Below are positions 29,278 through 47,784 of a stretch of 64,000 bases of DNA, piece by piece (the first letter of the stretch is position 1; every line of letters begins with the position of its first letter). Under the pieces are notes generated by a model. That model was given only the letters and a program-made list of their open reading frames with translations. It ran no database searches and was not told the origin of the DNA. Source of the DNA: Clostridia bacterium (GTDB lineage Bacteria > Bacillota > Clostridia > Oscillospirales > CAG-272); the NCBI GenBank assembly GCA_017456905.1, contig JAFTIL010000013.1:34207-98206 (forward strand). Direction: 5' to 3'. The translations under genes and the position numbers were made by a program.

Positions 29278-29318
29278 ATGTGTTCCTCCGTTTCGGGATG
29301 TATTCTTTCATCCCCCAT

Positions 29319-29347
29319 AGTATACCATATTTCGCAGCATTTTTCAA
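29319..29347 (-). promoter_or_regulatory. Promoter for the RlmI-like gene
   Basis: Minus strand: -35 TTGAAA, 17-bp spacer, -10 TATACT, about 40 bp before the ATG. Confidence 0.75.
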
Positions 29348-29796
29348 GAGGCCCTCGTCGCGTGGCCTCCGAATGTGTGAAAATTGCAAAAGCAGTCACA
29401 AAGCATCAAAAATCAACAATCAAAAGAGCAAGAGAGAAAAGTTTGTGCAATTCGCCGATACGTAGAAAAACGGCGCCTAAAATTGTGCATATTGCCAAAA
29501 CAATCAAAAGAACAGATGAAGAGGAACTGAAGAAAAGGTGAATTTCCAATGTGAAAAGTGTAAACAAATCGCGCTTTTTGTGTAAACAATGTTTTCTGAT
29601 ATGTGAATAAAGGGAGAACAAACACAAAAATATTTCAAAATCGAAACAATGAATTCAAATTCTCTTTGGGGTCACACGGTCACGCGAACGGGTTACCTGC
29701 CGAAACCCTTCTCTAAACGGAATTTTTAACAAACCGTGAACGGTCGCAAAAGGGCGTTTTTGACGCTCCTTTTAATGTATAAAACATTCCCGCCAC
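29348..29796. other. AT-rich non-coding region upstream of the ABC/DUF5696 operon
   Basis: About 450 bases, clearly richer in A/T than the surroundings. No believable gene; open frames here have no RBS and no family features. It holds two direct copies of GTGTAAACAA (29558-29567 and 29580-29589), 22 bp apart, and a TGTGAAAAGTG just before the first. These could be regulator sites for the downstream promoter. Nothing else was seen. Confidence 0.5.
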
Positions 29797-29825
29797 TTGA
29801 CAATTTCGGGTTTTTGTGGTATCAT
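29797..29825 (+). promoter_or_regulatory. Promoter for the ABC/DUF5696 operon
   Basis: -35 TTGACA, 17-bp spacer, -10 TATCAT. The start site would be near 29832, about 408 nt before the first ATG. No later promoter was seen before any of the seven genes. Confidence 0.75.
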
Positions 29826-29831
29826 GCAAGG

Positions 29832-30239
29832 GTCAAATTAGGGTGTTTTGCAACCGCCCCGAGTGATTTGACGGGCCCAAAAGGCTTTTGTGAGAGCGAA
29901 AGTACGTTTGCGGAAAACGGTGCCGCAAGCGTCTTTTTCCGCCCCTATGAGGCCTTTGACACCTGTCGATCCTGCCTCGACTGCCACACGTATGTCCGCT
30001 GCGTTTGGATAAGCCTTCGGCTTGTTTTCAAACGATTTTCGGCTGAAAACGGTCCCTGTCGCATAGCCTCTGCGACTTGTGATTGTCCGACTGCCGGGAA
30101 AAGCCGGATCTTGGCGGACGCGCAGGAGAGGTTCGGAGCGGATTTCCGCATCTGTGGTATGCTGACGGCAGCAACATACCCTGAGGACACGGTTCTGTCC
30201 CGGGCTGTGTCCCGAAAATCTTACCAGGAGGAAAATTGA
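29832..30239 (+). ncRNA. Long structured 5' leader of the ABC/DUF5696 operon
   Basis: 408 nt without a convincing gene; an open frame from 29736 reaches the ATG but has no RBS, is Cys/Arg-rich and low in favoured codons. Hairpin arms: TTTGCGG with CCGCAA near 29908-29930, AAGCC/GGCTT near 30010-30024, GGTATGCTG with CAGCA-CATACC at 30157-30180, and GGACAC/GTGTCC at 30184-30211, then AGGAGG. Such a leader fits an attenuator or riboswitch, but I recognise no known class. Confidence 0.45.
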
Positions 30240-33200
30240 ATGTTGGGAACGAAATTGAAAAGACTGGTCGCCGGTTTGCTTTGCTTTGCAATGCTTTTTG
30301 GTTGTACTGCAGTCGTTGCGTCAGCTTCGGGTATCGGTTCCGATGACGGCTCTGGCTCTGTCACGGACTCGTCTTTGGCCGATCTGAAGGAGCTTTTAAA
30401 CGCAATTTCGTACGATAAGTATGAAGAGAAAAATCAGAACGTACCCAAGGCTGACGCCGCTGTCGAAGTCTCTGTAAAGGACTTTACTGTTGAGAGCGGT
30501 GATGGCTTTGAACTGAAGACGGTAGAGGGTGAACAGGTTCTGTTTACACCCCAGGACGGTGCCGTATCTTGGACTGTGAACGTCCCTAAGACGGCTAAAT
30601 ACGCGATCAAGATCGTGTACTATCCTGATCGTAACCGCTCCACTTCTATCGAGCGTATTCTGAAGATCAACGATGAGGTGCCTTTTGCTGAGGCAAGATT
30701 TTTGACCCTCCCCAAGAACTGGGTCAATGAATATGTCGATGCTGTATATGCCCCCAAGGATGGCGAGTCTGCTGAGGCTATAGCGCAGGCTGCGAGAGAT
30801 GCGGGCTTTGCCGAGGTCAATGTAACCGATGGAAACGTATGTATCGCTTTCCCTGAGTATATGACCGAAGCCATGCGCGCTTTCTGCGATGCTTATGAGA
30901 TCCGTTTCTTCGTAACGGATATCAACAATAACGAGATCCGCCCCACGGCTGTGGACAGCCCCAAGTGGATGGATTACTACCTCCGCGACTCTTCCGGTTA
31001 TTACACCAATAACTTCGAGTTCGCTTTGGAGGCGGGCGAGAACAAGATCACCCTTGAGGGTCAGAACGAGCCCATGTCCATCAAGGCTATCGTGCTGTAT
31101 CCTGCTGAGGACATTCCTACATATGAGGAATATGCCCAGAAGTATGCAGGTAAGCCTGAGGGTAGCGACGTGATCAAGATTGAGGCTGAGGAGTTTACCG
31201 CTGCTTCGGGTAAGACCATTTACTCTACCGAGGACCGCTCCTGCGCCATCAACTCTCCCTCTGATGTGACCCGTTCCGTGCTGAACACCCTTGGCGGCGA
31301 GAAGTGGGCGACTGCAGGTCAGTGGGTAGAATATCGCTTCCAGGTCAGCTCCTCGGGTATGTACGACATCGTTTCCCGCTTCAAGCAGGACGTGCTGGAC
31401 GGTATGTATACTTGCCGTACCCTGTATCTTTACAGCCAGGGACTGGCAGAGGGTGCCGACGGTTATTACAACGGTTCGCCCTTCGAGGAGGCACAGAAGC
31501 TGGTCTATGACTACAGCGCTTCCTGGCAGGTCACCGCTCTTTCCAGCGGCGTGCAGAATGACAGCAACGGCGATGGCAAGATCGATAAGAAAGATAGTGA
31601 CGTGACCTATCCCGTATACCTGGAAAAGGATGTTGTCTATACCATTCGTCTTGAGGTTACCCTGGGTAAGATGGGCGAGGTCGTCCGCAAGACTCAAGAG
31701 GTTCTGAACTCCATCAACGCCGACTACTTGAATATCATCAAGCTGACCGGTACGGCTCCCGACTCTTACCGTGACTATGGATTTACCCAGGTCATGCCCG
31801 ACGTCATGGAGGACATGGTTCTCCAGTCCATCGCCCTCAACGAGCTGGCAGATGAGCTCACCGAGCTGGCAGGTAACACCTCTTCCAACGTAGCAACTCT
31901 GAAGAAGGTCGCTCGACTCCTGGAGAAGATGGGCCGTGATGATGACGAGGTGGCTAAGAACCTTGCAAACCTGAAGACCAACATCGGTACGTTGGGTACC
32001 TTCCTGTCTGATGCGCAGACTCAGCCTCTCCAGTTGGACTACCTTGTGATCCAACCCGCCAAGAGTGAGCTGCCCAAGGCAGAGCCTAATTTCTGGCAGA
32101 GCTTCGTTCATGAGATCGGTGGCTTCATCCAGTCCTTCTTCCGTGATTACGACAGTATGGGTGCTCTGACCGAGACCGAAGAGGGTTCCGTCCAAGTGTG
32201 GATGGAGTCCGCTCGTGACCAGTCTCAGGTGCTCCGTAACCTCGTAAACAACGGTTTCACCCCCGACACCGGCATCGCCGTTGACCTTAAGCTGGTTGCA
32301 GGCGGTACCCTCCTGCCCTCCATTCTGGCAGGCTCCGGCCCTGATGTTTCTCTCGGCCGCGGTCAGGGTGACGTTATCAACTACGCAATCCGTTCCGCTC
32401 TTCTGGACATCGACCGTTTCGACGACTTTGAAGAGACGTCCCAGAACTTCAACGAAGCCGCTATGCTGGTTCTCGGTATCGAGGATGCCGACGAAGTTCT
32501 TCATTATTATGGTCTGCCTGAGGTGCAGGGCTTCCCCATGATGTTCCTGCGTACAGATATTCTGGCTGACCTCGGCCTTGAGATCCCCAAGTCCTGGGAT
32601 GATATCATGGCTTGCATTCCTACCCTGCAGGCAAACAACATGCAGATCGGTCTTTCCACCGACTACAAGATCTTCCTGTATCAGCAGGGCGGTGACCTCT
32701 TCGCTGACGGCGGTATGCGCATCAATCTGGACTCCCAGTTGGCGCTCGCTTCCTTCGAGAAGATGTGTAACCTCTTTACCATGTACTCCTTCCCCTACCA
32801 GTACAATGCTGCGAACCGTTTCCGTACCGGTGAGATGCCTATCATCATCGGTGACTACGTTGGTACCTACAACCAGCTGAAGGTCTTCGCAACTGAAATC
32901 CAGGGTAAGTGGGAGTTCCTGCCTCTGCCCGGTGAAATTCAGGCTGACGGCTCTATCAACAACGTTTCTATCTCCGGTGTGACCGCTTGCGTCATGGTCA
33001 GCGGTTGTAAGGAGGAGAAGCAGGCTCCTGCTTGGGAGTTTATGAAGTGGTACACCGGCGAACAGTGCCAGGTGGACTACGCCAACGAAATGGTTGCTAT
33101 TCTGGGTCCCTCCGGTAAGCAGGCAACCGCAAACAAGGCCGCTCTCGCAAGCTTGCCTTGGACCACCGATGAGTACGAGCAGGTACAGCTCCAGTTCAAC

Positions 33201-33788
33201 AACCTGGCATCTGTTCCTAACTACCCCGGTGCTTATATCATCGACCGTTACACCAGCTTCGCCTTCCTCAGTGCTTACAACGACAGCGCAGACCCCTCCG
33301 ACTCCTTGATGACACACATCAATACCATCAATAAGGAGATCGCACGTAAGCGTGCAGAGTTCGGTCTGGAGACACTGACGGATGCTAAGGGCGTGGATCA
33401 TAAGGATCTTCTCTCCAAGCGTCTCGAACAGCTCCGCCAGCTTGTTGAAAGCATGAGAGAAAATGACGCCTTCCTCTCCGAGTATGAATCCCTCATGGTT
33501 CAGATCGAACGAGCTGTTAAGAGTGATGACAAGGCTACCCTGAATGAGTGTGCCGTTGATGTTTGGGCTCTTTACAACAAGCTTGATCCTACGGGCGAGA
33601 TCTACACGGCAGATAAGATCGAGGTCATGGGTTATGATATGAGAGATACCTCCCTGACCAAGGATCAGAAGAGAAAGCTGCGTAAGTGCTACTCCTACGA
33701 GGTCTACGATAACAGTGACGAGCTGGTAACCTTGCTGCACTGTGCCGCTGAGTTCCTCGAGGATGCCGCTACTTACACCGAGGATTGA
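30240..33788 (+). CDS. Large ABC-transporter solute-binding protein with carbohydrate-binding-like modules
   Basis: 1182 aa. An export signal covers about 1-29; MLFGC at residue 22 is a weak lipobox, so lipid anchoring is uncertain. About 45-300: a beta-sandwich-like region (AVSWTVNVPKTAKYAIKIVY, FEFALEAGENKITLEGQNEP). About 309-640: a second CBM6-like region (IKIEAEEFTAASG, AGQWVEYRFQVSSSGMYDIV), interrupted near 440-455 by a single dockerin/EF-hand-like loop DSNGDGKIDKKDSD. About 648-1020: a family 1 solute-binding domain (VDLKLVAGGTLLPSILAGSG, GFPMMFLRTDILADLGLEIP, ADGGMRINLDSQLALASFEK, WEFMKWYTGEQCQVDYA). A helical tail follows. A typical solute-binding protein is about 400-450 aa, so the N-terminal 640 residues are an addition. 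It captures a sugar or oligosaccharide for the permeases that follow 47 nt later. Confidence 0.88.
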   Translation: MLGTKLKRLVAGLLCFAMLFGCTAVVASASGIGSDDGSGSVTDSSLADLKELLNAISYDKYEEKNQNVPKADAAVEVSVKDFTVESGDGFELKTVEGEQVLFTPQDGAVSWTVNVPKTAKYAIKIVYYPDRNRSTSIERILKINDEVPFAEARFLTLPKNWVNEYVDAVYAPKDGESAEAIAQAARDAGFAEVNVTDGNVCIAFPEYMTEAMRAFCDAYEIRFFVTDINNNEIRPTAVDSPKWMDYYLRDSSGYYTNNFEFALEAGENKITLEGQNEPMSIKAIVLYPAEDIPTYEEYAQKYAGKPEGSDVIKIEAEEFTAASGKTIYSTEDRSCAINSPSDVTRSVLNTLGGEKWATAGQWVEYRFQVSSSGMYDIVSRFKQDVLDGMYTCRTLYLYSQGLAEGADGYYNGSPFEEAQKLVYDYSASWQVTALSSGVQNDSNGDGKIDKKDSDVTYPVYLEKDVVYTIRLEVTLGKMGEVVRKTQEVLNSINADYLNIIKLTGTAPDSYRDYGFTQVMPDVMEDMVLQSIALNELADELTELAGNTSSNVATLKKVARLLEKMGRDDDEVAKNLANLKTNIGTLGTFLSDAQTQPLQLDYLVIQPAKSELPKAEPNFWQSFVHEIGGFIQSFFRDYDSMGALTETEEGSVQVWMESARDQSQVLRNLVNNGFTPDTGIAVDLKLVAGGTLLPSILAGSGPDVSLGRGQGDVINYAIRSALLDIDRFDDFEETSQNFNEAAMLVLGIEDADEVLHYYGLPEVQGFPMMFLRTDILADLGLEIPKSWDDIMACIPTLQANNMQIGLSTDYKIFLYQQGGDLFADGGMRINLDSQLALASFEKMCNLFTMYSFPYQYNAANRFRTGEMPIIIGDYVGTYNQLKVFATEIQGKWEFLPLPGEIQADGSINNVSISGVTACVMVSGCKEEKQAPAWEFMKWYTGEQCQVDYANEMVAILGPSGKQATANKAALASLPWTTDEYEQVQLQFNNLASVPNYPGAYIIDRYTSFAFLSAYNDSADPSDSLMTHINTINKEIARKRAEFGLETLTDAKGVDHKDLLSKRLEQLRQLVESMRENDAFLSEYESLMVQIERAVKSDDKATLNECAVDVWALYNKLDPTGEIYTADKIEVMGYDMRDTSLTKDQKRKLRKCYSYEVYDNSDELVTLLHCAAEFLEDAATYTED

Positions 33789-33835
33789 TCCCGTTTCCGT
33801 GAAATTCCTACATTTTAATAAAGGAGAGAGAGTTA

Positions 33836-34783
33836 ATGGGTACTAAAAACGCTGCAAAGCGGACCAAGAATCATGGTGACATGACGATGATGCAGTGGAA
33901 ACTTAAGGAAATGCGCCAAAATTGGGTTGCCTACCTGATGGTTGCTCCTTACATGATCCTCTTCACATTGTTTACCATCGTTCCCGTGGTCCTGTCCATT
34001 TTCATCAGCTTTACAGACTTTAACATGCTGGAAATGCCCAACATCGTCTGGCTGAAAAACTACGTGACTCTGTTCTTCGACGATGATGTATTCCTCACCG
34101 CCTGCAAGAACACGTTTATCTTCGCCGTGATCGTAGGACCTACCTCCTACCTCATGTCCTTCCTTGTGGCTTGGTTCATCAACGAGCTTCCCCCCAAGAT
34201 CCGTGCTCTGGTCACCCTGATCTTCTATGCACCTTCCATTTCCGGTCAGGTGTACTTGATCTGGGGTACCCTGTTCGCATCCGACTCCCAGGGTTGGGCA
34301 AACGCCATCCTTCTGGAAATGGGCATCATCGAAACCGAAATCGCCTTCTTCCAGAACGAGACTTATGTTATGCCCCTCTGTATCATCGTTTCTCTGTGGA
34401 CGTCCCTCGGTACCTCCTTCCTTGCGTTTATCGCAGGTCTTCAGGGTATCGACCACTCCCTGTTTGAGGCAGGTGCCGTGGACGGTGTCCGTAACCGTTG
34501 GCAGGAGCTTTACTATATCACCCTGCCTTCCATGAAGCCCCAGCTGATGTTCGGTGCTATCATGGCTATCACCGGCTCCTTCGGCTTCGGTGGTATCGTT
34601 ACGGCACTGGCAGGCTTCCCCTCTGTCAACTACTGTGCCCACACCATCATGCACCACCTGGAGGACTACGGTGGACAGCGTTACGAGATCGGTTATTCCT
34701 CAACCATCGCAGTAATCCTGTTTTTGATCATGATCGGTGCCAATATGTTGGTCAAGCGGATCATTTCCAAGCTTGGTACTTGA
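33836..34783 (+). CDS. ABC sugar transporter permease, MalF-like (first pair)
   Basis: 315 aa with six membrane helices. The EAA loop that docks the ATPase reads EAGAVDGVRNRWQELYYITL near residue 210. The RBS is AAGGAGAG. It is followed after 12 nt by its MalG-like partner. The ATPase is not encoded in the window; Firmicutes often use one shared MsmX/UgpC-type ATPase for many sugar importers. Confidence 0.93.
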   Translation: MGTKNAAKRTKNHGDMTMMQWKLKEMRQNWVAYLMVAPYMILFTLFTIVPVVLSIFISFTDFNMLEMPNIVWLKNYVTLFFDDDVFLTACKNTFIFAVIVGPTSYLMSFLVAWFINELPPKIRALVTLIFYAPSISGQVYLIWGTLFASDSQGWANAILLEMGIIETEIAFFQNETYVMPLCIIVSLWTSLGTSFLAFIAGLQGIDHSLFEAGAVDGVRNRWQELYYITLPSMKPQLMFGAIMAITGSFGFGGIVTALAGFPSVNYCAHTIMHHLEDYGGQRYEIGYSSTIAVILFLIMIGANMLVKRIISKLGT

Positions 34784-34795
34784 TGAGGTGAAGAT

Positions 34796-35668
34796 ATGGC
34801 AAAATTAAGAACAAGAAAACATAAAGTCGTCCTTGCCCGTTCCGCAGGCGGCGACGCGGGTATTTCTGTCATCCTGATCATCCTGGGTATCTTCATGTTC
34901 CTGCCCATGTACTACGTGGTCATCCAGTCCTTGAAGCCCCTCGATGAGCTGTGGATGTATCCTCCCCGTTTCTACGTAATGTCCCCCACCTTTAAGAACT
35001 ACCGCGATCTGTTCACTCTGATGAACATTTCCTGGGTTCCTTTCTCCCGTTACATTTTCAATACCGTGCTGACCTCTATCGCAGGTACCTTCGGTCACCT
35101 GCTGCTGGCTTCCATGGCCGCATACGCGCTGGCTAAGATCAAGTTCCCCGGCCGTAACGGTATGTTCCAGATGGTTCAGCTCTCCCTGATGTTTAACGCA
35201 ACGGTTACCGCGATCACCCAGTTCATTCTGATGTCTGCTCTGGGTTGGCTGGATAGCTACCTTGCCATCATCGTCCCCGCATGGTGTTCCTCCCTGGGTC
35301 TGTACCTCATGAAGCAGTTCATGGATACCAACGTCAACGACTCGGTGCTTGAATCCGCAAGACTTGACGGCGCGGGTGAGTTCAAGACCTTCTGGGTCAT
35401 CGCCATGCCTATGGTTAAGCCCGCTTGGCTGACTCTGATCATTTATTCCTTCCAGGGTCTGTGGAACGCGGGTGCATCCATGTATATCTATTCCGAACAA
35501 TATAAGTCGTTCAACTACGCCATCGGTCAGATCCTGGCAGGTGGTATCAAGCGTCAGGGTGCCGCAGGTGCCGCGCAGGTGATCATGATGCTGGTGCCTA
35601 TCTCGGTATTCGTCATTTCTCAGTCGAACATCATCGAGACCATGGGTTCCAGTGGTATGAAGGATTAA
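34796..35668 (+). CDS. ABC sugar transporter permease, MalG-like (first pair)
   Basis: 290 aa, six helices. EAA loop ESARLDGAGEFKTFWVIAMP near residue 183. The N-terminus is basic (KLRTRKHKVVLARSAG) before the first helix. RBS GAGGTGAAG. It pairs with the gene 12 nt upstream to form the channel. Confidence 0.93.
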   Translation: MAKLRTRKHKVVLARSAGGDAGISVILIILGIFMFLPMYYVVIQSLKPLDELWMYPPRFYVMSPTFKNYRDLFTLMNISWVPFSRYIFNTVLTSIAGTFGHLLLASMAAYALAKIKFPGRNGMFQMVQLSLMFNATVTAITQFILMSALGWLDSYLAIIVPAWCSSLGLYLMKQFMDTNVNDSVLESARLDGAGEFKTFWVIAMPMVKPAWLTLIIYSFQGLWNAGASMYIYSEQYKSFNYAIGQILAGGIKRQGAAGAAQVIMMLVPISVFVISQSNIIETMGSSGMKD

Positions 35669-35686
35669 CGGAGGTGAGTATATAAT

Positions 35687-37861
35687 ATGAAGAAAATATC
35701 TCTTATGAAAAAAATACTCTGCCTCGCATTTGCAGTGATGATGGTGGCCACCGTTCTGGTGGTCCCCACCTCCGCAGGCTCCGCATATCAGACCTACGTG
35801 TATGATATCGACGGTTTCCCGCTGTACTCTCCTGATGCCTATACAGCCATCAAGAGCGTAAACTCCGATGAAATGGGCCTCGAAGTGGCCATTGAAACTC
35901 CCGGTGATATGATCACGGATAAGGATCAGAATGTGTATGTAGCCGATACCGGTAACAACCGTATCGTCGTTCTGAACCGTTACCTCAAGGTTCAGTTCAC
36001 CATCTCTACCTTCTCCAATGACCAGGGCGTTCCCGATAGCCTTGCGGCTCCTCAGGGCGTGTTCGTCAGCGAACCCAACGATAAGTACGGCAAGCTGATT
36101 TGGGTCTGCGACACGGGTAACAACCGTATCGTTGTGTTCGACGAGAAGGGTGAATTCTTCAAGATCATTGAAGAGCCCGAGGATTCTTTGTTCGAGACTG
36201 ACTCGGTCTATAAGCCTGTAGCTATGGCAGTGGACCAGTACAACAGATTGTACATCGTTTCTTCTACCACCTATCAGGGTATCATCGTTATGACCGACGA
36301 AGGCGAGTTTACCGGTTTTATCGGTGCTCAGAAGGTTGCCATCTCGGCTTGGGATATCATCTGGCGTCGTTTCCAAACCGACGAGCAGAGAGAGCAGCAG
36401 GAGCAGCTCGTTTCTACTGAGTTTAATAACATCGCCATCAACCGCGATAAGGGCCTTGTTTACGTTACCACCTCCACCATTGATGACGCTAACGTTGACG
36501 GCGCTATCAGAAACGGCTCCAAGGACGGTATCTACTCTCCCGTTAAGCTGCTCAATGCCAACGGTGACGAGATCATGAGACGTAACGGCTTCTGGATCCC
36601 CGCAGGTGAAATTGACTACGTGAATATGTCCTCCGACTCCGATGATGTTACCGGTGTTTCCCGTATCATCGACGCAGCCGTTGGTCCTCTGGACACTTGG
36701 TCCATCATCGACGAGAACAGAAACCGTATCTACACCTACGATTTCAACGGTAACCTCCTGTTTGCCTTCGGTGACAAGGGTACCATGCTGGGCAACCTGG
36801 CCAGCATCGAGGCCATCGCTTACCAGGGCGACAATATGCTGATCCTGGATAAGACCAATGATAACATTACCATCTACCAGAGAACAGAGTACGGTAATAT
36901 CCTGCTCTCCGCCATCGAGGCCGAAGCCAATCAGGACTTTGATCTGGCCATCGATCTCTGGACTAAGGTTCTGCAGAGAAACTCCAACTTCGACTCGGCT
37001 TATGTCGGTATCGGTCAGGCTATGTACCGTAATAAGGACTATGCCAACTCTCTGACCTACTTCGAGTCTGCATACGACACCACCAACTGGTCCAACTCCT
37101 ATAAGGAGATCCGTAAGGAATGGATGTCCACTTACTTCCTGCTGTTGCTTGCCATCATCGTGGGTCTGATCCTCGGTGTGATGTTCTTCTTCCGCTGGAT
37201 GGCGAAGATCAACAAGAAGGTTGCAACTTCGGGTAAGAAGAGAACCTTTGGTCAGGAATTGGCCTATGGCTTCCACGTGATCTTCCATCCTTTCGACGGC
37301 TTCTGGGATCTGAAGCACGAGAAGAGAGGCTCTGTCAGAGGCGCTATCTTCTATATCCTTCTGGCAATCGTCACCTTCTACTATCAGGCCATCGGCCAGG
37401 GCTACCTCCTGGATCCTTACGGTGGATTTGCCAGCGTTTGGGGACAGGTTCTGGGCGTTCTCGTTCCTCTGTTCCTGTTCGTATTGGCTAACTGGTGTCT
37501 TACCACCCTGTTCGAGGGCGAAGGCTCCTTCAAGGATGTTTTCGTGGCTACCTCCTACAGCTTGGTTCCCCTGCCTCTCCTGATCATTCCCGCAACCATT
37601 TATTCCAATTTCTGTATCACTACCGAAGTCGATATCATCGGCTTCATTGGCACGCTGGCCTTCATCTGGCTGGGTCTGCTCGTCTTCTTTGGCACCATGG
37701 TCACTCACGACTACTCTATGGGTAAGAACGTGATCACCTTCCTTGGTACCATCGTTGCCATGGTCTTCATCATGTTCGTAGCAGTCCTGTTTACCACTCT
37801 GATCGGTAAGATCGTCAGCTTGATCACTAACATCGTCACAGAAATTCAGTACAGACTATAA
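35687..37861 (+). CDS. Exported NHL-propeller / TPR protein with a C-terminal YIP1-type membrane domain
   Basis: 724 aa. Signal peptide 1-30 (VVPTSAG). About 70-400: NHL-type propeller repeats, two of them nearly identical in core (VYVADTGNNRIVVLNRYLKV and WVCDTGNNRIVVFDEKGEF). About 405-465: TPR-like helices (NQDFDLAIDLWTKVLQRN, NKDYANSLTYFESAYD). A first membrane helix near 483-503; then 525-724 resembles YIP1 domains (GFHVIFHPFDGFWDLKHEKR, then about five helices). The propeller should face outside, next to the importer. The order permease pair - this protein - DUF5696 protein suggests a fixed partnership. Biochemical function unknown. Confidence 0.85.
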   Translation: MKKISLMKKILCLAFAVMMVATVLVVPTSAGSAYQTYVYDIDGFPLYSPDAYTAIKSVNSDEMGLEVAIETPGDMITDKDQNVYVADTGNNRIVVLNRYLKVQFTISTFSNDQGVPDSLAAPQGVFVSEPNDKYGKLIWVCDTGNNRIVVFDEKGEFFKIIEEPEDSLFETDSVYKPVAMAVDQYNRLYIVSSTTYQGIIVMTDEGEFTGFIGAQKVAISAWDIIWRRFQTDEQREQQEQLVSTEFNNIAINRDKGLVYVTTSTIDDANVDGAIRNGSKDGIYSPVKLLNANGDEIMRRNGFWIPAGEIDYVNMSSDSDDVTGVSRIIDAAVGPLDTWSIIDENRNRIYTYDFNGNLLFAFGDKGTMLGNLASIEAIAYQGDNMLILDKTNDNITIYQRTEYGNILLSAIEAEANQDFDLAIDLWTKVLQRNSNFDSAYVGIGQAMYRNKDYANSLTYFESAYDTTNWSNSYKEIRKEWMSTYFLLLLAIIVGLILGVMFFFRWMAKINKKVATSGKKRTFGQELAYGFHVIFHPFDGFWDLKHEKRGSVRGAIFYILLAIVTFYYQAIGQGYLLDPYGGFASVWGQVLGVLVPLFLFVLANWCLTTLFEGEGSFKDVFVATSYSLVPLPLLIIPATIYSNFCITTEVDIIGFIGTLAFIWLGLLVFFGTMVTHDYSMGKNVITFLGTIVAMVFIMFVAVLFTTLIGKIVSLITNIVTEIQYRL

Positions 37862-37882
37862 CGCAGATAGGAGAAAGATATA

Positions 37883-40800
37883 ATGAAAATAACCAAAAAA
37901 ATCATATCCCTGCTCTTAGCTGTTCTCATGTTGTGCGGCACGCTGACTGTCTTTTCTATTAACGTGGCAGCCGAGGAGGAATCCGAAACCACTACCGGAT
38001 CCGGTGTGATCAATGTAATGGATGAAGAAGAAATCATCAAGCATTACACCACCACGGTTTATGCCACTCCCGAGGAAAAGCTGGAAACCATGGATCTTAT
38101 GACCACCAAGGGCAACTATCGGCTCTACGCTGATGCTCTGTCCGGTGAGGTTGCCGTTAAGGACCTTACCTCGGGTCAGATCCTGTTCACCAACCCCTAC
38201 GATCTTGGCGCCACCACCGCTGTGGAAAGTGTTAAGATGCAGTTGATGTCCCAGATCATCGTCCGCTACACTGAAAACGGCCGTCCCAAGGAGTATTACA
38301 GCTTCGAATACGCTGCTACTCGTAACCAGATCAAGGTTAAGAATATCAAGAACGGTATTCGTGTTGAGTACACCATTGGCCGTGAGGAAGCAAGACGTCT
38401 CGTTCCCCGTATGATCGAGCAGTCCCGTTTTGAGACGCTCATCAAGCTCCCCCTGCTGGAGTACTTTGATGGCAACGAGAACAACTTCTACTTTAAGCAG
38501 TTCATGTCCTATTATCAGCTGAAGGGTCTGGAGTTCTGCTCCTCTGACCGCTTGAAGGAAGACCTTTTGTCGGTCTATCCCGTCGTTAAGGATATGAACA
38601 TCTACGTGTTCGACCCCACCGCTACCACCGTTGAGTTGGAGAAGCGTGAGGAAGACATCAAGACCGCTTGTCCTAACTATTCCTACGAGGAAATGGACTA
38701 CGACCATCAGCAGACAGGATACGAGAGCGAAGACGAAAATCCTCCCGTATTTAAGATGGCTTTGGAATATACCATCGACGAGGACGGCTTCTCTGTTCGT
38801 CTCCCTGCGAACGGTATTCGTTTCAACGAGTCCAAGTTCCAGCTTGAAAGCATTTGTGTTCTGCCTTATCTGGGCGCTGGTAACATCGCATATGAGGGTT
38901 ATACCTTCTTCCCCGATGGTGCAGGTGCACTGTTTGCCTTTGAGGATCTGGTAGACGTTAACAGTAACTCGGTGGCCAGCAAGGTCTACGGTACTGACTA
39001 CGCTTACCACGAGATCTCCGGTACTTATCAGCAGACCGTCCGTTATCCCGTGTTCGGTATCGTGGAAAAGACCAGATACTACGACTTCAACGAGTTTAAT
39101 GAGAACACCGGTGAGACCGAGACTACGACCATCAACGGTATGATCTTTGATGCTCTGGAGGCTACTCGTACCGAAGGTGCAACCCTGCCTACCGCCCTTT
39201 CCAAGTACAGCAAGCTCAGCGCTTCCAGCGGTGAGGCTGTCAAGGAAGTGATTAACCGCGGTTTTGTCGCTATCATCGAAGAGGGCGACTCCATGGCCGA
39301 GATCGCTACCAAGCATGAAGGCGTGAAGCATCCCTACGACACCGTGGAGATGAGCTTCTACCCCAGACCTCAGGATACTTATAACATGGCAGACGCTATT
39401 TCCGTCGGTACCGCTACTGACTGGACCGTTGTGTCTACCCGTAAGTACGTAGGTAACTACAAGATCCATTACGTGATGCTTACGGATGAGAACGTTGCCG
39501 AGGAGAAGCAGATCGCGGATGGCGATTGGTATGATGCTACTTGGATGGGCATGGCTATCGCTTACCGTGACTATCTGGTTAAGAAGGGCGTACTCAGTCC
39601 TCTTTCCACCGAGGATACTTCCAGCGACATTCCCCTTTACATTGAGGCTTTCGGTACCATTGAGACCATTGAGAAGATCGCCTCTATCCCTGTGGAGGTC
39701 ATGAAGCCTCTGACTACCTTTGCTGACGTGCAGACCATGTTTACCGAGCTGCTCTCCGCAGGCGTCAATAACGTCAACTTCAAGCTGACAGGTCACGCCA
39801 ACGGCGGTTTCTTCTCCACCATGCCTTATAAGCTGAAGTGGGAAAAGTCCGTCAGCGAGGATACCGATTTCCAGGAACTGATTAACTTTGCTAAGACCAT
39901 CAACGACGGTGACTACTCCGTTCTCGTGGACTATGCCAAGGAGAACAACGTCTTTGAAAATGAAGAAGATCTCGCAGCCTTCGAGGCTTACGTTGCCGAG
40001 CTTAAGGGCAGCAACCTGGGTATCTTCCCCGACTTCAACTTCTCTTACGCACATCGTTCCATGGACGAAATGTTCGACGGTCTGAACCTCCGCAAGCACG
40101 CCGTCAGAACCATCGACGACCGTTATACTCAGAAGCGTTACTACTACGCAACCCGTCAGAGACACGTCGGCTATTATGAACTGGCCATCTCTCCTGCCTA
40201 CTTCAATCACTTCTATGAGAAGCTGATCGGTAACTACCTGAAGTATGACAATGTCTCGGGTATTTCCGTGGGTTCCTTGGGCGATAGCTTGAACTCCGAC
40301 TTCGACGAGGATGAGCCCTACAACCGCGCTGACTCTAAGGGCTTCGTTCTGCAGGCTCTGGAGTACTTCACCGCAGCCGACGGTGCTAACCTCGAGGTCA
40401 TGGTCAACGGCGGTAACGCTTATACCTGGCAGTACGTTGACCATATCCTGGGCGCTCCCCTGGATTCCAGCCGCTATATCCGCGCAAGCTACAGCATTCC
40501 TTTCATTGGTGTTGTGCTTCACGGCTATTCCAAGTTTGCAGGCTCTCCTCTGAACATGGAAGGTGACCTGAACTACGCGAAGCTGAAGGCCATCGAAAAC
40601 GGTGCAGCCATCTACTTCACCCTGTCCTATCAGAACACCCAGGTGCTGAAGGAAGACTTCCTCACCAGCCAGTATTATTCCGTTCGTTATGACATCTGGT
40701 ACGACGACGTGGTTGAGATCTATAACGAGCTCAATACCGTGACCAAGGATCTGCAGGATAAGCTGATCGTTGACCACGATTTCCTCTCCGGTATGCGTGT

Positions 40801-43800
40801 GCCCGATACCGACGAGCTTTATAACGATATCATGGATGACTTCAATGCCGTCCTTGACTTCCAGAGCAACAAGGCCGAGTACGAAGAACAGATGAAGAAC
40901 GATGCCGTGGCTGATGCCCGCGATAAGATCGCCAGCACCGAAGCCCAGGCAAAGGCCTTCATTGATCTTTGCCTCGCCAACTACAGCGGCATCAACGGTG
41001 CTGCCTACCTGTACGTCACGGGCGACAGAAGCTTTGAACGCCGTTATTCCACTTTCGTGGAGGCTAATACCGCACTTCAGGCCATTGAGGCTCGTTATGA
41101 GTCCGCTACTCCCGAGGAGAAGGAAGCAATGGCCGCGGATCTGGAGAGTGCTCAGATCACCCAGAAGCAGGCAAGAGGTCAGCTTCTGACTTACATCCGT
41201 AACATTTCCAGAGCTATTTCCAATATGGAAGTTGCTTACGAGAATTTGAGCAAGCTGCTTGAAGATGCTCAGGAAGGTCAGCTTCTGATCAATTCCACCG
41301 ATGAGATCCCCCAGAGCATCATCGACGAGATCGCCGCTCAGCTGAAGGCTACCGAAGAAATGATGGAGCAGAAGCTTGGCGTTATGTTCGATCAGACCGT
41401 TGAGAAGGCCGAAATGGATACCTTCATCCATACCCACGTGGCTCAGCTTATCCTCAACTCCTATGGTGAAGGTGCTGATACCGCTGTCGGTAAGATGGAG
41501 AATATCTTCAATATGTTCCTCGAGAAGGACTACGGTTTGGCGCTCTCTGAGGTCGAGCTGCTCCGCTACCTTGAGGCTAACCGTGACCTGACCAACGATC
41601 AGCTCATTGAGAAGTACGGTCTCTCTGCTGATAAGACCTCTGTTGCCGGTCTCGTCAAATATTTGAGAGAACTGCTGGGTGACACCTATAAGTTCGATCC
41701 CACTCTCTCTGATGAAGCTGCCGAGGGCGAGTTCAGCGAGATCGATCAGCACGTACTGGGTTACTACCTGTACGTTCTGACGAACCGTATCACCGGTCTC
41801 AGCGACTCTGCTGTGATCCCTGCGCTCAACTTCGTTCCTACCCGTATCAACGAAAATGGTAAGACCGTTTCCAATACTAAGAACATCTCTGATGTGACCA
41901 ATAAGATCAAGGATGCGATTGCCAAGGCTCTGACCGGCAGCAGCGGTGTCCTTTCTAAGGTGGAGGACGGCAACTACAACCTGGACGATCTGTTCACCGA
42001 TGCTGAGTGGACAACTCTCATTGAGGCTTGTAAGAAGTTCATCACGGATTCCGCTCAAACGGCCGCTACCAAGGTTGAGTACGCAACCCCCGAGACTTTG
42101 GATGCTGACCTCCGCGCTTATGCTGAGGCTCTGTACTACCAGAAGGCTCTGACAAATATACTGCCCGAGAAGACCGTCTCTTCTCTCTACATCATGACGG
42201 TTTCCTACGTGACCAATGACAGCCTTTCTATCCTGGTTGAGGAATTCGTTGCCAATTATGACGGCGAGGATACCTCCGCGGCTGCCATCTACACCGCCCT
42301 CATGAATGACGAGGAGATTTTGGCTTCCGTTGATACCATCGCTGAAATGCTGAAGGATAGCTACGGCGACGTCAAGGCTCAGCTCTTGAAGGCTCTGGGC
42401 AGCATGGCTGCTGATAAGATCCTCGGCAAGAAGGCTCCCACCCTGAACATTGGCAAGGCTCCCGCTCTGAGCTTGGATCTGCCTTCCAAGAAGGATGACG
42501 AGCATCCTGTCACCAAGGCAGAGGCTATCAAGGCTGTTGACGAGATCATTGAGGCCGCTCTGCCTGAGGCTACCGTTGATACCGTGGCAAGCATCATTGC
42601 AGAGGTGACCGCTTACCTGGCTCCTTATAACTTTGTAGAAGGCGTTGATCGTGATACCGCAATCGCTGATTACGTCAACTATGCGTACACCGAGCAGGCT
42701 ATGGAGCAAGCTACCAAGGATATCGACGCTATCATCGAAGCCGGTGTTCCCACCGCTGACGATGCAAAGATGGCCGAGATCCTGGCACAGGCCGCCGCCA
42801 TTCTGGCTCCTCTGACCTTTATGGAAGGCGTGGATATGGATGCTCAGCTCAAGGCTTACGTCTACTATCCTTATCTGGCTCTGATTGCCGATCAGGCCTA
42901 CGACAGCTACTACTACGACGTACAGCTTGGCAAGGCCGATGCTTCCGTTCGTGAGAGCGTGGCTGCTATGTACAGCCAGATCGTGGCTAATCTGCCCACA
43001 GACGCCGACGTTTACGACCTTTACAACGTGGTTCTCGATGCTCTGACCAACAAGGAGTATGACGTGGCCGGTATCACCGCTGCCATCGCCGCAGAGATCA
43101 CTCACCACGTGGAAGGTAAGAATAACCTTTCTACCGACGTCTTGAATTACTTCTGCTTCCTGTTGCTCAACAGCTTCGAGGGTTATTCCTTGGGCGAGGA
43201 CGCTCCCGCTATCACGGCGATCGAGTCCAGCAAGCTGAACAACGCAATGAAGCAGATCAACAAGAGCTTGAACGCTAAGATCAATGCCCTGGTCGTGGAG
43301 ATCAAGACCAACACCTCCAGAGGTGCCATCTCCAATTACTCCCTCTCTTCCGTCATGAGCGACGAGGAGCTGACTGCCCTTTGCGACGCAGAGGTCACTT
43401 CTCTGATTGATGCTCTGTTCGCAACTGAGGAAGTTCGCGAAACCCTCCGTGCCGAGCTGGAGGAACTCTTCAAGTATAAGTTCTACACCAGTGCTCTGGA
43501 TGAGCTGGGTGCTGACAAGAAGCCTTCCTTCCACGTGTCCGAGATCTATGGTGATGATCTGTATACCGCAGGTCAAGGCCTGAAGTCTCTGCTCCGCTGG
43601 TACGTCGTTCAGTATTCTCAGGCTATGACCGAAGAAGAGATTGATACCCTGATCGGTTCGACCTCCGGTAGCATTGAGGAGGAAGAAACTGACGAGTCCA
43701 AGTACCTGTCCGATGACGGTCGTATCGTGGCTGTGACTTACGGTGCTGCCGGCGCAAACGGTGGTTATGATAACTACAGAACCTTCGTCCTTAACTATAA

Positions 43801-43879
43801 CAACTTCTCTGTCAGCGTGGTCTACGACGGTATCCAGTATACCATCCCCGCTTTCAGCTACGTTGTTATTGATTATTGA
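37883..43879 (+). CDS. Very large exported DUF5696-like protein
   Basis: 1998 aa, the largest gene here. Signal peptide about 1-31 (SINVAAEE). About 55-400: beta-rich domain (GNYRLYADALSGEVAVKDLT, FSVRLPANGIRFNE). About 575-940: a TIM-barrel-like region (LYIEAFGTIETIEKI, VNNVNFKLTGHANGGF, LGIFPDFNFSYAHRSMDEMF, DNVSGISVGSLGDSL, LEVMVNGGNAYTWQYVD, YDIWYDDVVEIYNELN) that resembles the DUF5696 family and, more remotely, glycoside hydrolases. About 960-1925: nearly all helical, Ala/Glu/Asp/Leu-rich, with degenerate repeats (two segments share TADDAKMAEILAQAAAIL-like text). The last 55 residues (RIVAVTYGAAG, FVLNYNNFSVSVVYDGIQYT) return to beta structure. No sure catalytic pair. Family assignment is from memory of the pattern, not a search. 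Confidence 0.78.
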   Translation: MKITKKIISLLLAVLMLCGTLTVFSINVAAEEESETTTGSGVINVMDEEEIIKHYTTTVYATPEEKLETMDLMTTKGNYRLYADALSGEVAVKDLTSGQILFTNPYDLGATTAVESVKMQLMSQIIVRYTENGRPKEYYSFEYAATRNQIKVKNIKNGIRVEYTIGREEARRLVPRMIEQSRFETLIKLPLLEYFDGNENNFYFKQFMSYYQLKGLEFCSSDRLKEDLLSVYPVVKDMNIYVFDPTATTVELEKREEDIKTACPNYSYEEMDYDHQQTGYESEDENPPVFKMALEYTIDEDGFSVRLPANGIRFNESKFQLESICVLPYLGAGNIAYEGYTFFPDGAGALFAFEDLVDVNSNSVASKVYGTDYAYHEISGTYQQTVRYPVFGIVEKTRYYDFNEFNENTGETETTTINGMIFDALEATRTEGATLPTALSKYSKLSASSGEAVKEVINRGFVAIIEEGDSMAEIATKHEGVKHPYDTVEMSFYPRPQDTYNMADAISVGTATDWTVVSTRKYVGNYKIHYVMLTDENVAEEKQIADGDWYDATWMGMAIAYRDYLVKKGVLSPLSTEDTSSDIPLYIEAFGTIETIEKIASIPVEVMKPLTTFADVQTMFTELLSAGVNNVNFKLTGHANGGFFSTMPYKLKWEKSVSEDTDFQELINFAKTINDGDYSVLVDYAKENNVFENEEDLAAFEAYVAELKGSNLGIFPDFNFSYAHRSMDEMFDGLNLRKHAVRTIDDRYTQKRYYYATRQRHVGYYELAISPAYFNHFYEKLIGNYLKYDNVSGISVGSLGDSLNSDFDEDEPYNRADSKGFVLQALEYFTAADGANLEVMVNGGNAYTWQYVDHILGAPLDSSRYIRASYSIPFIGVVLHGYSKFAGSPLNMEGDLNYAKLKAIENGAAIYFTLSYQNTQVLKEDFLTSQYYSVRYDIWYDDVVEIYNELNTVTKDLQDKLIVDHDFLSGMRVPDTDELYNDIMDDFNAVLDFQSNKAEYEEQMKNDAVADARDKIASTEAQAKAFIDLCLANYSGINGAAYLYVTGDRSFERRYSTFVEANTALQAIEARYESATPEEKEAMAADLESAQITQKQARGQLLTYIRNISRAISNMEVAYENLSKLLEDAQEGQLLINSTDEIPQSIIDEIAAQLKATEEMMEQKLGVMFDQTVEKAEMDTFIHTHVAQLILNSYGEGADTAVGKMENIFNMFLEKDYGLALSEVELLRYLEANRDLTNDQLIEKYGLSADKTSVAGLVKYLRELLGDTYKFDPTLSDEAAEGEFSEIDQHVLGYYLYVLTNRITGLSDSAVIPALNFVPTRINENGKTVSNTKNISDVTNKIKDAIAKALTGSSGVLSKVEDGNYNLDDLFTDAEWTTLIEACKKFITDSAQTAATKVEYATPETLDADLRAYAEALYYQKALTNILPEKTVSSLYIMTVSYVTNDSLSILVEEFVANYDGEDTSAAAIYTALMNDEEILASVDTIAEMLKDSYGDVKAQLLKALGSMAADKILGKKAPTLNIGKAPALSLDLPSKKDDEHPVTKAEAIKAVDEIIEAALPEATVDTVASIIAEVTAYLAPYNFVEGVDRDTAIADYVNYAYTEQAMEQATKDIDAIIEAGVPTADDAKMAEILAQAAAILAPLTFMEGVDMDAQLKAYVYYPYLALIADQAYDSYYYDVQLGKADASVRESVAAMYSQIVANLPTDADVYDLYNVVLDALTNKEYDVAGITAAIAAEITHHVEGKNNLSTDVLNYFCFLLLNSFEGYSLGEDAPAITAIESSKLNNAMKQINKSLNAKINALVVEIKTNTSRGAISNYSLSSVMSDEELTALCDAEVTSLIDALFATEEVRETLRAELEELFKYKFYTSALDELGADKKPSFHVSEIYGDDLYTAGQGLKSLLRWYVVQYSQAMTEEEIDTLIGSTSGSIEEEETDESKYLSDDGRIVAVTYGAAGANGGYDNYRTFVLNYNNFSVSVVYDGIQYTIPAFSYVVIDY

Positions 43880-43911
43880 TGAGATCAGAAAGGAAAGTGA
43901 GGTAAAATTAT

Positions 43912-44886
43912 ATGACCAATGAAGTTAACCTTCAGGGAACGGTCAGCGCGCCCAAGGCCAAGAAGCGCAAAGTTGCGTCTCTTGATCGTAAAAAGGCTCG
44001 GGCAGGCTGGGTATTCGTTCTGCCTTTCGCGATCGGTTTCTTGTTCGTCTATCTGCCGATTATCTGGAATTCTATTTACATGAGCTTTAACGAGGTCAAA
44101 ACCATCACCGGTGGTGGTATTGAACTCATCTGGTGTGGCCTTGACAACTACAAATGGGCCATTCTGGAGGATCCCAGCTTCGTTCAGACCCTGATTACGG
44201 GTCTGGGCGAGCTCCTCTTCGACGTTCCCGCGATCCTGATCTTCTCTCTGTTCATGGCTGTGCTTTTGAACCAGAAGATGGTGGGCCGTGCCGCGTTCCG
44301 TGCGATCTTCTTTATCCCTGTTATCCTGGCTACAGGTATCATGGAGTCCATCGAGGGCCAGAATATTCTGGGTACCATGATGGAATCCGGTATCAACGAC
44401 GGCTCGGGTGGCAGCGCATCTACCGAGATCGTTTCGGCTATGGATATCTCCCGTCTGTTCTCCTCTATGAAGATCGGTACCGAGCTTGTAGAGTACGTTG
44501 TAAAAGTCATCAACAACATCTACGATATCGTCAACCGTTCGGGTGTACAGATGCTGATCTTCCTGGCGGGTCTGCAGTCTATTTCTCCTGCTATTTACGA
44601 GGCTTGTCGTATTGACGGTGCAACCGCTTGGGAAACCTTCTGGAAGATCACCTTCCCCATGATCAGCCCTATGATCCTGGTGAACGGTGTCTACACCATC
44701 ATCGACTCCTTTACCACCGATTCCAACTCGGTCATGTCTTACATCTCTCAGGTGTATAACCAGACCGACGGACAGGTGCATTCCTCCGCTATGGCTTGGA
44801 TGTACTTCATGATCGTCGTGCTGATCGTCCTTGTCGTTGTCGGTATCTTCTCCGCTTTTGTATTCTATCAAAAGCGTGATGCATAA
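43912..44886 (+). CDS. ABC sugar transporter permease, MalF-like (second pair)
   Basis: 324 aa, six helices after a Lys/Arg-rich cytoplasmic N-terminus (KAKKRKVASLDRKKARAG). The EAA loop (EACRIDGATAWETFWKITFP) is near residue 235. A periplasmic-type insertion of about 50 residues (near 155-205) separates helices 3 and 4 and is absent from the first-pair permease. It is not a close copy of the gene at 33836, so the pair was not made by recent local duplication. Confidence 0.92.
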   Translation: MTNEVNLQGTVSAPKAKKRKVASLDRKKARAGWVFVLPFAIGFLFVYLPIIWNSIYMSFNEVKTITGGGIELIWCGLDNYKWAILEDPSFVQTLITGLGELLFDVPAILIFSLFMAVLLNQKMVGRAAFRAIFFIPVILATGIMESIEGQNILGTMMESGINDGSGGSASTEIVSAMDISRLFSSMKIGTELVEYVVKVINNIYDIVNRSGVQMLIFLAGLQSISPAIYEACRIDGATAWETFWKITFPMISPMILVNGVYTIIDSFTTDSNSVMSYISQVYNQTDGQVHSSAMAWMYFMIVVLIVLVVVGIFSAFVFYQKRDA

Positions 44887-44898
44887 GGAGGTGGCACA

Positions 44899-46002
44899 AT
44901 GGATGTAAATATGCAACAACCTAAAATTACTAAGGAATCCAAGAATAAGATCAAGGTTGAATTTGAAAGAACACCTCTGAAGGAAAGACTGAAGGCGAAG
45001 TTCCTCAATCTGTACTTCTTCCAGCAGGTGGGCTGGTATATCTTCCGCCTGGTTCTGCTCATCGGTCTTTCCTACGTCGTTTTGTATCCCTTCCTTACAA
45101 AGATCGCAGGCTCTTTCATGTCTCCCGAGGACTTCGTTGACGTGACGGTTCGCTTGATCCCCAAGAACTTTACCTTGGACACCTACAAAGCCATTCTGAC
45201 CGAGCTCGACTATTTCGAGGCTTTTGGTAACACCCTGTTGCTCTCTCTGGTCTGCGGTGTTCTCCAGACGTTCTCCTGCTGCTTTATCGCATATGGTCTG
45301 GCTAAGTTCAGATTCCGTGGCAACAAGCTGGTTATGGCTCTGGTCGTTCTGACCATGATCGTGCCTCACCAGACGCTGCAGTACTCCATGTTCATAGGCT
45401 TCCGTTACTTTGATATCTGGGGCATTTTGTCCTTCCTCAGCGGCGGTGCGTCCATCGACATCGCAGGCTTTGAAGGCGTCAACGCCATCCTGGCCAATAT
45501 TAAGCTCTTTGAGCTGGAGAACAACTCTTTGACGCTCACCAACACTTTCGCGCCTCTGGTCATCCTGTCCTCGACAGGTCTTGCCTTCAAGAACGGTCTG
45601 TATATCTTCATGCTGCGCCAGTTCTTCAACGGTGTGCCTGATGCGCTTGAGGAGTCCGCGTATATCGACGGCTCGGGCGTGTACCGTACCTTCTTGACCA
45701 TTATTCTGCCCTTGTCCATCCCCATGATGATGACAGTATTCCTGTTTGCCTTCTGTTGGCAGTGGATGGATGACTTCTACACCAACTTGTTCTTTACCGG
45801 CACTAAGTCGATCAAGTTGCTGCCTAAGATCGTAGATATCCCCAGCTCGCTGAAGATGGACTACGCAGGTCAGAACCTGTACTATTCCGCAATTCGAAAC
45901 ACTTGCGGTATTTGTATCATTCTGCCTCTCGTAATCCTCTACATCTTCTGCCAGAACTTCCTGGTACAAGGTATCGAGCGCTCCGGTTTGACCGCAGAAT
46001 AA
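44899..46002 (+). CDS. ABC sugar transporter permease, MalG-like (second pair)
   Basis: 367 aa, longer than the usual ~280. About 50 extra N-terminal cytoplasmic residues precede helix 1, and there is a longer loop around 180-215 (GGASIDIAGFEGVNAILANI). EAA loop: EESAYIDGSGVYRTFLTIIL near residue 252. RBS AAGGAGGTGG. It is the last gene of the operon; the terminator follows at once. This second pair has no solute-binding gene of its own. Confidence 0.92.
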   Translation: MDVNMQQPKITKESKNKIKVEFERTPLKERLKAKFLNLYFFQQVGWYIFRLVLLIGLSYVVLYPFLTKIAGSFMSPEDFVDVTVRLIPKNFTLDTYKAILTELDYFEAFGNTLLLSLVCGVLQTFSCCFIAYGLAKFRFRGNKLVMALVVLTMIVPHQTLQYSMFIGFRYFDIWGILSFLSGGASIDIAGFEGVNAILANIKLFELENNSLTLTNTFAPLVILSSTGLAFKNGLYIFMLRQFFNGVPDALEESAYIDGSGVYRTFLTIILPLSIPMMMTVFLFAFCWQWMDDFYTNLFFTGTKSIKLLPKIVDIPSSLKMDYAGQNLYYSAIRNTCGICIILPLVILYIFCQNFLVQGIERSGLTAE

Positions 46003-46011
46003 TTCTTTTAG

Positions 46012-46043
46012 ATCCCCGCATCCTCGGATGCGGGGATTTTTTT
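46012..46043 (+). terminator. Terminator of the ABC/DUF5696 operon
   Basis: Perfect 12-bp stem ATCCCCGCATCC/GGATGCGGGGAT with a 2-nt loop, followed by seven T. Confidence 0.95.
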
Positions 46044-46075
46044 GCATTTTGCAAGGAAAATATTCAGTTGCCCCC

Positions 46076-46104
46076 TTGATTATTTGTCATCCTTGTGTTA
46101 TAAT
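46076..46104 (+). promoter_or_regulatory. Promoter for the exonuclease-thiI operon
   Basis: -35 TTGATT, 17-bp spacer, -10 TATAAT, placed about 170 bp before the TTG start at 46275. Confidence 0.8.
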
Positions 46105-46110
46105 TAAAAT

Positions 46111-46274
46111 TGATATATTATGGGTAGTTATGCTTACTTTTGAGAGATGACCCCATAAAAATGCTTTCAGAGCATCTGTGAAGGTGATCACTTCACCGAG
46201 AATATTGTATTTTGCCGACAGGGCAGGGCGGTCGGGAACCGTCGGGGCACTGTTGGATTTTGGAGGTATATATT
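46111..46274 (+). ncRNA. Structured leader before the exonuclease gene
   Basis: About 164 nt with four possible stems in a row: ATGGG/CCCAT closing 46119-46155, ATGCT/AGCAT with a 5-nt loop near 46160-46174, GTGAAG/CTTCAC near 46179-46198, and CGGT/ACCG with CCGAC/GTCGG near 46214-46245. No U-run follows, and no known riboswitch core was recognised. Confidence 0.35.
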
Positions 46275-47462: not shown

Positions 47463-47784
47463 TATGTTCGGACTTGAAAAAGACCACAAGATCGCATACG
47501 GCGAAGAGGTGGCTCACCTGACCACCGTATACGACGTGGCTATGCTGGGTATGATACGCGGCCTTTTGGAGGACGCCGACATCCCCTATCTTGTGCACGA
47601 GCGTGCCACGGGCAGCGCCATGCGTATTATGACGGGCTTTTCCCTCTACGGCACGGATATTTTCGTGCCCAAGGCCGCCGAGGAGACAGCCCGTGATCTG
47701 ATTGCGGGTATTGACACCGACGGCGAAGGCGCCGAGCCCGTGACCATCCTTGAAGATGAGAAAATTGAGGGCGAAGAGCAATGA
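47455..47784 (+). CDS. DUF2007-like small protein
   Basis: 109 aa. It overlaps the exonuclease end by 8 nt and thiI by 4 nt, so it is translated as part of the chain. The pattern MIRGLLEDADIPYLVHE, then SLYGTDIFVPKAAEETARDL follows DUF2007, a small beta-alpha fold of unknown function sometimes called a putative signal-transducing protein. The C-terminus is acidic. No membrane helix. Confidence 0.75.
   Translation: MFDMFGLEKDHKIAYGEEVAHLTTVYDVAMLGMIRGLLEDADIPYLVHERATGSAMRIMTGFSLYGTDIFVPKAAEETARDLIAGIDTDGEGAEPVTILEDEKIEGEEQ

Follow-up and report, generated by a model that had tools for sequence, protein, structure and literature searches.

Uptake of glycans can couple surface capture to import, as in the SusCD-type systems of Bacteroidota, in which a surface glycan-binding protein is paired with an importer, a TonB-dependent pore. 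Sharing of MsmX-type ATPases among importers of the ATP-binding cassette (ABC) type is established in Bacillus subtilis (PMC5730181, PMC7658222), and ATPase sharing has also been reported for Anaerocellum bescii, in which an importer locus without a nearby ATPase is powered by MsmK (PMC12838199). Here we analyse a 64,000-nucleotide stretch of contig JAFTIL010000013.1 from a Clostridia bacterium (hereafter the window), and within it a seven-gene operon encoding a binding protein, two MalF/MalG-type permease pairs, an NHL/TPR/Yip1 membrane protein and a very large exported DUF5696 protein. With moderate confidence we explain it as a strongly, probably constitutively expressed two-module CUT1 uptake machine for complex oligosaccharides, whose ATPase is an orphan UgpC/MsmX protein. 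Homology and gene neighbourhood point to glycan import, and the conserved gene order, by itself, suggests assembly into one machine.

Gene order, modules and expression signals

The seven open reading frames (ORFs), all on the plus strand, span 30240-46002 and are separated by gaps of 47, 12, 18, 21, 32 and 12 nt. They form two modules, A (binding protein-MalF1-MalG1) and B (Yip1-DUF5696-MalF2-MalG2). Pfam DUF5696 is matched at E <= 0.001 in 46 of 58 genomes (this one and 57 relatives); by our reading 42 of the 57 other relatives carry an operon-type DUF5696 gene, three more having only weak or GH129-type matches. The 42 genomes yielded 47 loci, six of them from G044, and the seven genes stand in order at 42 of these loci, four being cut by contig ends and one (L081) rearranged. 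A scan of named genome contigs gave at least 565 relatives among at least 595 candidates, and among the best 80 the full order is found in 70 if split genes count as one and ORFs without an assignment are passed over (68 strictly contiguous), the remaining loci being, by our reading, truncated at contig ends. Clostridia genomes assembled from the guts of ruminants and other herbivores account for many of these 80 records. G044, a member of the same order, holds six copies of the system (L068, L077-L081), and in one copy the binding protein is preceded by MalF2/MalG2-like permeases.

The order extends far beyond the genus. A draw of 249 genomes across the phylum, including this one, gave 20 with a DUF5696 match at E <= 1e-20, in scattered genera; our distant set consists of 20 loci, taken from every one of the 19 other genomes listed except G191. 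Twelve of the 20 encode all seven functions in the same order, with MalG1 interrupted in L243 and the binding protein of L239 truncated where its contig begins; module B precedes module A in two, and in six it stands without an adjoining module A, whose binding protein is encoded elsewhere in all five genomes behind those six loci, and likewise in four of four other genomes searched (as a contig-edge fragment only in G159). A chance cluster or a set of unrelated units is rejected by this conservation, and the loss of order elsewhere that the preliminary description had named as evidence against a single operon did not appear in the neighbourhood comparison it had proposed.

A sigma-70 type promoter at 29797-29825 on the plus strand (TTGACA-17-TATCAT, 11 of 12 matches, TG ahead of the -10 as in extended -10 promoters) is followed by a 5' leader of 414 nt (29826-30239, plus strand), and the operon closes with an intrinsic terminator at 46010-46039 on the plus strand, having 13 pairs and a T-rich tail (the runner-up has 8 pairs). 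Promoter and terminator totals match the chance level, and only these two outliers were used; the promoter is the top scorer among 17 promoter-like hits within 28500-47500, where 16.3 are expected by chance, so the remaining hits are no evidence for internal promoters. The description of a seven-gene unit with one promoter, one terminator and gaps of 12-47 nt is thus upheld in every part, and internal promoters that might split it are represented by weaker hits at the chance rate. The motif TTGACN-N17-TANNNT lies at most 900 nt ahead of, or right at, the predicted binding-protein start in 81 of 105 leaders (two overlapping samples of related loci plus the window), at varying distance, while about 1.5% of leaders would carry it under even base use. 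Of the operon's 329 Gly codons 61% are GGT, and of its 154 Arg codons 52% are CGT; the corresponding shares in five other window genes are 28% (of 170) and 26% (of 134). The noted GGT and CGT dominance is borne out, and this codon use is consistent with high expression.

The leader begins GGGTCAAATTAGGGTGTTTTGCAAC, a start found in several loci of the genus. No riboswitch or other known RNA was recognised within it, there being no Rfam family match; the Rfam scan of 27000-47500 gave a single irrelevant sub-threshold match, outside the leader. Very long antisense ORFs on the minus strand opposite the operon genes (30396-33740, 34805-37708 and 37916-43576) are probably mirror frames arising from codon bias.

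The DUF5696 protein

The DUF5696 protein (37883-43879, plus strand; 1998 aa; Pfam DUF5696, 406 bits) comprises a GH129-type core at about residues 70-970, a long Ala/Leu/Glu-rich insertion at about 1045-1860, which was left out of the structure model, and a short C-terminal part that realigns with relatives. The core is predicted to adopt a glycosidase fold of the GH129/GH101 type. Its description as a DUF5696-like giant therefore stands as to the family, while the core is now recognised as this fold and the size is mostly due to the insertion, which is seen mainly in this genus. A search of 5.39 million open-licence papers gave no mention of DUF5696. Pfam Glyco_hydro_129 had no match in 149 genomes and none in control genomes either, and is thus uninformative as a marker.

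Both profile alignments show a gap in DUF5696 at the position of the GH129 catalytic Asp (Asp435 of NagBb, Asp486 of ZGAL_3152), by which DUF5696 appears to have lost this position and is rejected as an ordinary member of GH129. Judging from these alignments, holding glycans is a likelier role for the protein than normal hydrolysis. It had been proposed that the system captures and perhaps processes a glycan; with the catalytic Asp position lost, capture is better supported than processing.

An alternative is that DUF5696 represents a new family of active alpha-glycosidases, exo- or endo-acting, and would trim the glycan before uptake by means of other acids (Asp806, Glu905); we regard this as less likely. 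The GH129 fold spans the whole core, and among 61 aligned proteins, with the seven most divergent sequences dropped, all have Glu905 and 53 have Asp806; Glu905 is nearly invariant in the more divergent set too, L081 having Ala there. There is also a precedent, since the GH129-like carrageenan enzyme ZGAL_3152 is described as having kept just one of the two catalytic residues of NagBb, Asp435, with other acids being essential (PMC5698469). However, it is this one retained residue that is gapped in DUF5696, and the aligned strand is without any invariant acid, so that we continue to favour a holding role.

A homologue of the GH129 alpha-N-acetylgalactosaminidase NagBb (E 1.4e-126) is encoded on contig 78 of the same genome (L082:6109-7968, minus strand), with no evident signal peptide at its printed N-terminus. 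The presence of this gene suggests the use of glycans bearing N-acetylgalactosamine. It accounts for a weak DUF5696 match on that contig, which was rejected as a second system, and a similar gene is present in G049, a genome without an operon-type DUF5696 match.

Binding proteins, permeases and ATPase

Module A begins with an exported binding protein of 1182 aa (30240-33788, plus strand; Pfam SBP_bac_8), in which a signal peptide is followed by beta-sandwich domains resembling carbohydrate-binding modules (CBMs) of the CBM35/6 kind within about residues 75-475, a helical region (478-593), a MalE-type binding domain (about 647-1042) and a helical C-terminus. The N-terminal domains gave profile matches to carbohydrate-enzyme entries of the PDB (best E 4.5e-6), with Pfam CBM_35 at 13.4 bits against a cut-off of 28; in structure searches the match lists were taken up by the MalE-type domain. 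It is followed on the plus strand by the MalF-type permease 1 (33836-34783; EAA-type loop EAGAVDG at residue 211), which matches Pfam BPD_transp_1 below the curated cut-off and NCBIfam UgpA at E 6.7e-19, below that model's cut-off, and by the MalG-type permease 1 (34796-35668; BPD_transp_1; ESARLDG at residue 186). Module B encodes, in addition to DUF5696, a membrane protein of 724 aa with an NHL propeller, TPR and Yip1 (35687-37861, plus strand; Pfam and hydropathy), encoded in many relatives by two separate genes, one for NHL/TPR and one for Yip1, and the MalF-type permease 2 (43912-44886, plus strand; EACRIDG at residue 230) and MalG-type permease 2 (44899-46002, plus strand; ESAYIDG at residue 252), both matching BPD_transp_1. 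Pfam agrees with the gene labels first assigned, with Yip1 and NHL above and TPR, like MalF1, below cut-off. On the evidence of Pfam, NCBIfam and the printed motifs, the combination of MalF/MalG-type permeases having EAA-type loops with a MalE-type binding protein is that of a CUT1 importer. We found no literature on YIP1 together with ABC importers; YIP1 is absent from the main text of the C. bescii regulon paper PMC8579813, and NHL from the available text of PMC12838199, the sole paper checked for it.

Two permease pairs with a single binding protein, a central point of the preliminary description, are indeed what the operon encodes, but this is probably a derived state, given that a second binding protein (420-490 aa in most cases) is usual in distant loci and rare in close relatives. 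Among the 20 distant loci, 18 have it within the sequence retrieved, upstream of module A in three; ten of the 18 supplied training sequences for the model used, and the independent count is eight of ten. SBP_bac_1 was matched by eight of the ten such ORFs scanned first and then by four more. The close relatives have it at 2 of 47 and 2 of 80 loci (4 of 127). Behind the operon, two loci of a distant family (L239, L254) carry arrays of at least four similar binding proteins in tandem, each about 445 aa long.

It is unlikely that pair 2 is no second importer and instead assists pair 1 as a coupled partner or sensor, with transport only by pair 1 and the binding protein. Such a role would fit an operon with one binding protein in a genome with three SBP_bac_1 matches, of which the first belongs to the operon, the second to a complete ABC set, and the third neighbours a PotB-type permease; however, EAA-type loops are kept in both pairs, and the second binding protein usual in distant loci would presumably serve pair 2. 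In the two-importer arrangement that we prefer, the one binding protein may be shared by both pairs, or DUF5696 may deliver to pair 2.

No ATPase gene lies within the operon. The whole-genome search that had been advised for an MsmX-type ATPase led to contig 41 (L189:1770-2921), where a protein scores above the NCBIfam UgpC cut-off (471.5 versus 432 bits); its gene is near the end of this 13-kb contig, on which no BPD_transp_1 permease was found. The other MalF/MalG-like pairs of the genome are one set with its own ATPase, one Pot-type set, and pairs on contigs 30 and 36 outside the classification. G033 has a similar ATPase (481.2 bits, NCBIfam) on a 71-kb contig without a permease, its other classified permease sets being of PotB and PhnU2 type, with two single permeases outside the classification. 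OB_MalK is matched below 1e-8 in 35 of 42 operon-bearing relatives, and three of the remaining seven have UgpC-like proteins by protein search (99% and 92% identical fragments in G006 and G012, 56% identity in G011), which gives a UgpC/MalK-like ATPase in 38 of 42, NCBIfam typing among them being available for G033 only.

We propose that the large binding protein of module A would hold the glycan through its CBM-like domains, and that its MalE-type cleft would take the released oligosaccharide and pass it to MalF1/MalG1. In module B, DUF5696 at the cell surface might hold or present side chains or chain termini, anchored beside MalF2/MalG2 by the NHL/TPR/Yip1 protein, and the orphan UgpC/MsmX protein would supply the ATPase to all four permeases. 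In this proposal the glycan substrate, the mode of expression, the physical assembly and the roles of NHL and Yip1 are all inferred.

Several observations weigh against it. There is no spare SBP_bac_1-type protein for pair 2 in the genome, and four of the 42 operon-bearing genomes (G001, G022, G034, G057) are without a close MsmX. The assembly has a completeness of 94.7% and a contamination of 8.8%, and the ATPase gene is on a separate contig, a concern offset by the fragment in G006, which is of the same genus. Another ATPase-MalF-MalG-binding protein set is present, so that elimination does not strictly pair the orphan ATPase with the operon. No glycosidase or sugar regulator is found in the window flanks, nor in the operon, as first described; nor is there a glycosidase in the 25 listed of the 101 families matched by 67 first downstream ORFs from 69 close-relative loci (150-1000 aa, simple script calls), where alanyl-tRNA synthetase leads (7 of 67), with Dockerin_1 in two and a carbohydrate kinase in one.

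Neighbourhood, substrate and related systems

The flanking genes tested by Pfam are unrelated to the operon; they encode beta-lactamase-fold, HTH/TPR and exonuclease-domain proteins, ThiI, an M48 peptidase, a phosphoribosyltransferase, a class II (D/K/N) tRNA synthetase and a polysaccharide-biosynthesis protein, besides frames without a Pfam match. A promoter-like site (46076-46104; 10 of 12 matches, extended -10) lies right after the terminator, ahead of the exonuclease-domain gene at 46212-47462. Some 5 kb upstream of the operon is a gene for a Polysacc_synt_2 protein (23463-25517), by which the bacterium may make a surface glycan of its own.

At least one glycosidase or pectic lyase neighbour occurs at 10 of 20 distant loci; among 20 ORFs hand-picked by eye the families were GH26 (three), GH3 (two), pectic lyase, GH106, apiosidase, GH28, GH29, GH31, GH42 and GH43, although in L245 the GH3 enzyme may belong to an envelope-recycling type and not act on plant glycans. 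That the system serves the recycling or assembly of an envelope or self-made polymer, and not food glycans, would suit the strong conserved promoter, the codon use and the mostly housekeeping neighbours of close relatives, among which no linked glycosidase or regulator was seen, but it is quite improbable, as half of the distant loci adjoin glycan-degrading enzymes (with the reservation for L245) and 15 of 57 other relatives are, by our reading, without operon-type DUF5696.

With a fold for DUF5696, two modules and a likely ATPase named, a conserved gut-bacterial operon becomes a testable glycan-uptake system, suggesting a mode, so far little known, of capturing complex sugars from plants or the host; if true, a glycosidase fold has been turned into a transporter part. 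A bolder idea, to which we give little credence as yet, is a Gram-positive counterpart of SusCD, a single trans-envelope assembly in which a catalytically dead GH129-fold DUF5696 and a CBM-armed binding protein would hold a branched glycan while the NHL/Yip1 scaffold locks the two permease pairs side by side; in this clade DUF5696 would have taken the place of the second binding protein and would itself feed pair 2.

The operon resembles the MsmX-dependent CUT1 importers, such as AraNPQ and the pectin-oligosaccharide importers of B. subtilis, in being of type I with a probably shared ATPase (PMC5730181), and the MsmK-dependent importers of A. bescii in having no ATPase at the locus (PMC12838199). 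Unlike these, it has two permease pairs, CBM-like domains fused to the binding protein, and a constant NHL/Yip1 and DUF5696. DUF5696 in turn differs from GH129 (NagBb, ZGAL_3152) and GH101 in the deleted catalytic Asp position, its place in a transport operon and the long genus insertion. With Gram-positive polysaccharide utilization loci the system shares the glycosidase or pectic lyase neighbours of half the distant loci; unlike in such loci, none is linked in the window or among the commonest neighbours in close relatives, and the pairing of a carbohydrate-active enzyme with a regulator by which they are recognised was not found. As in SusCD, a surface glycan-binding protein would be joined to an importer, but the proteins are unrelated and ABC permeases take the place of the TonB-dependent pore.
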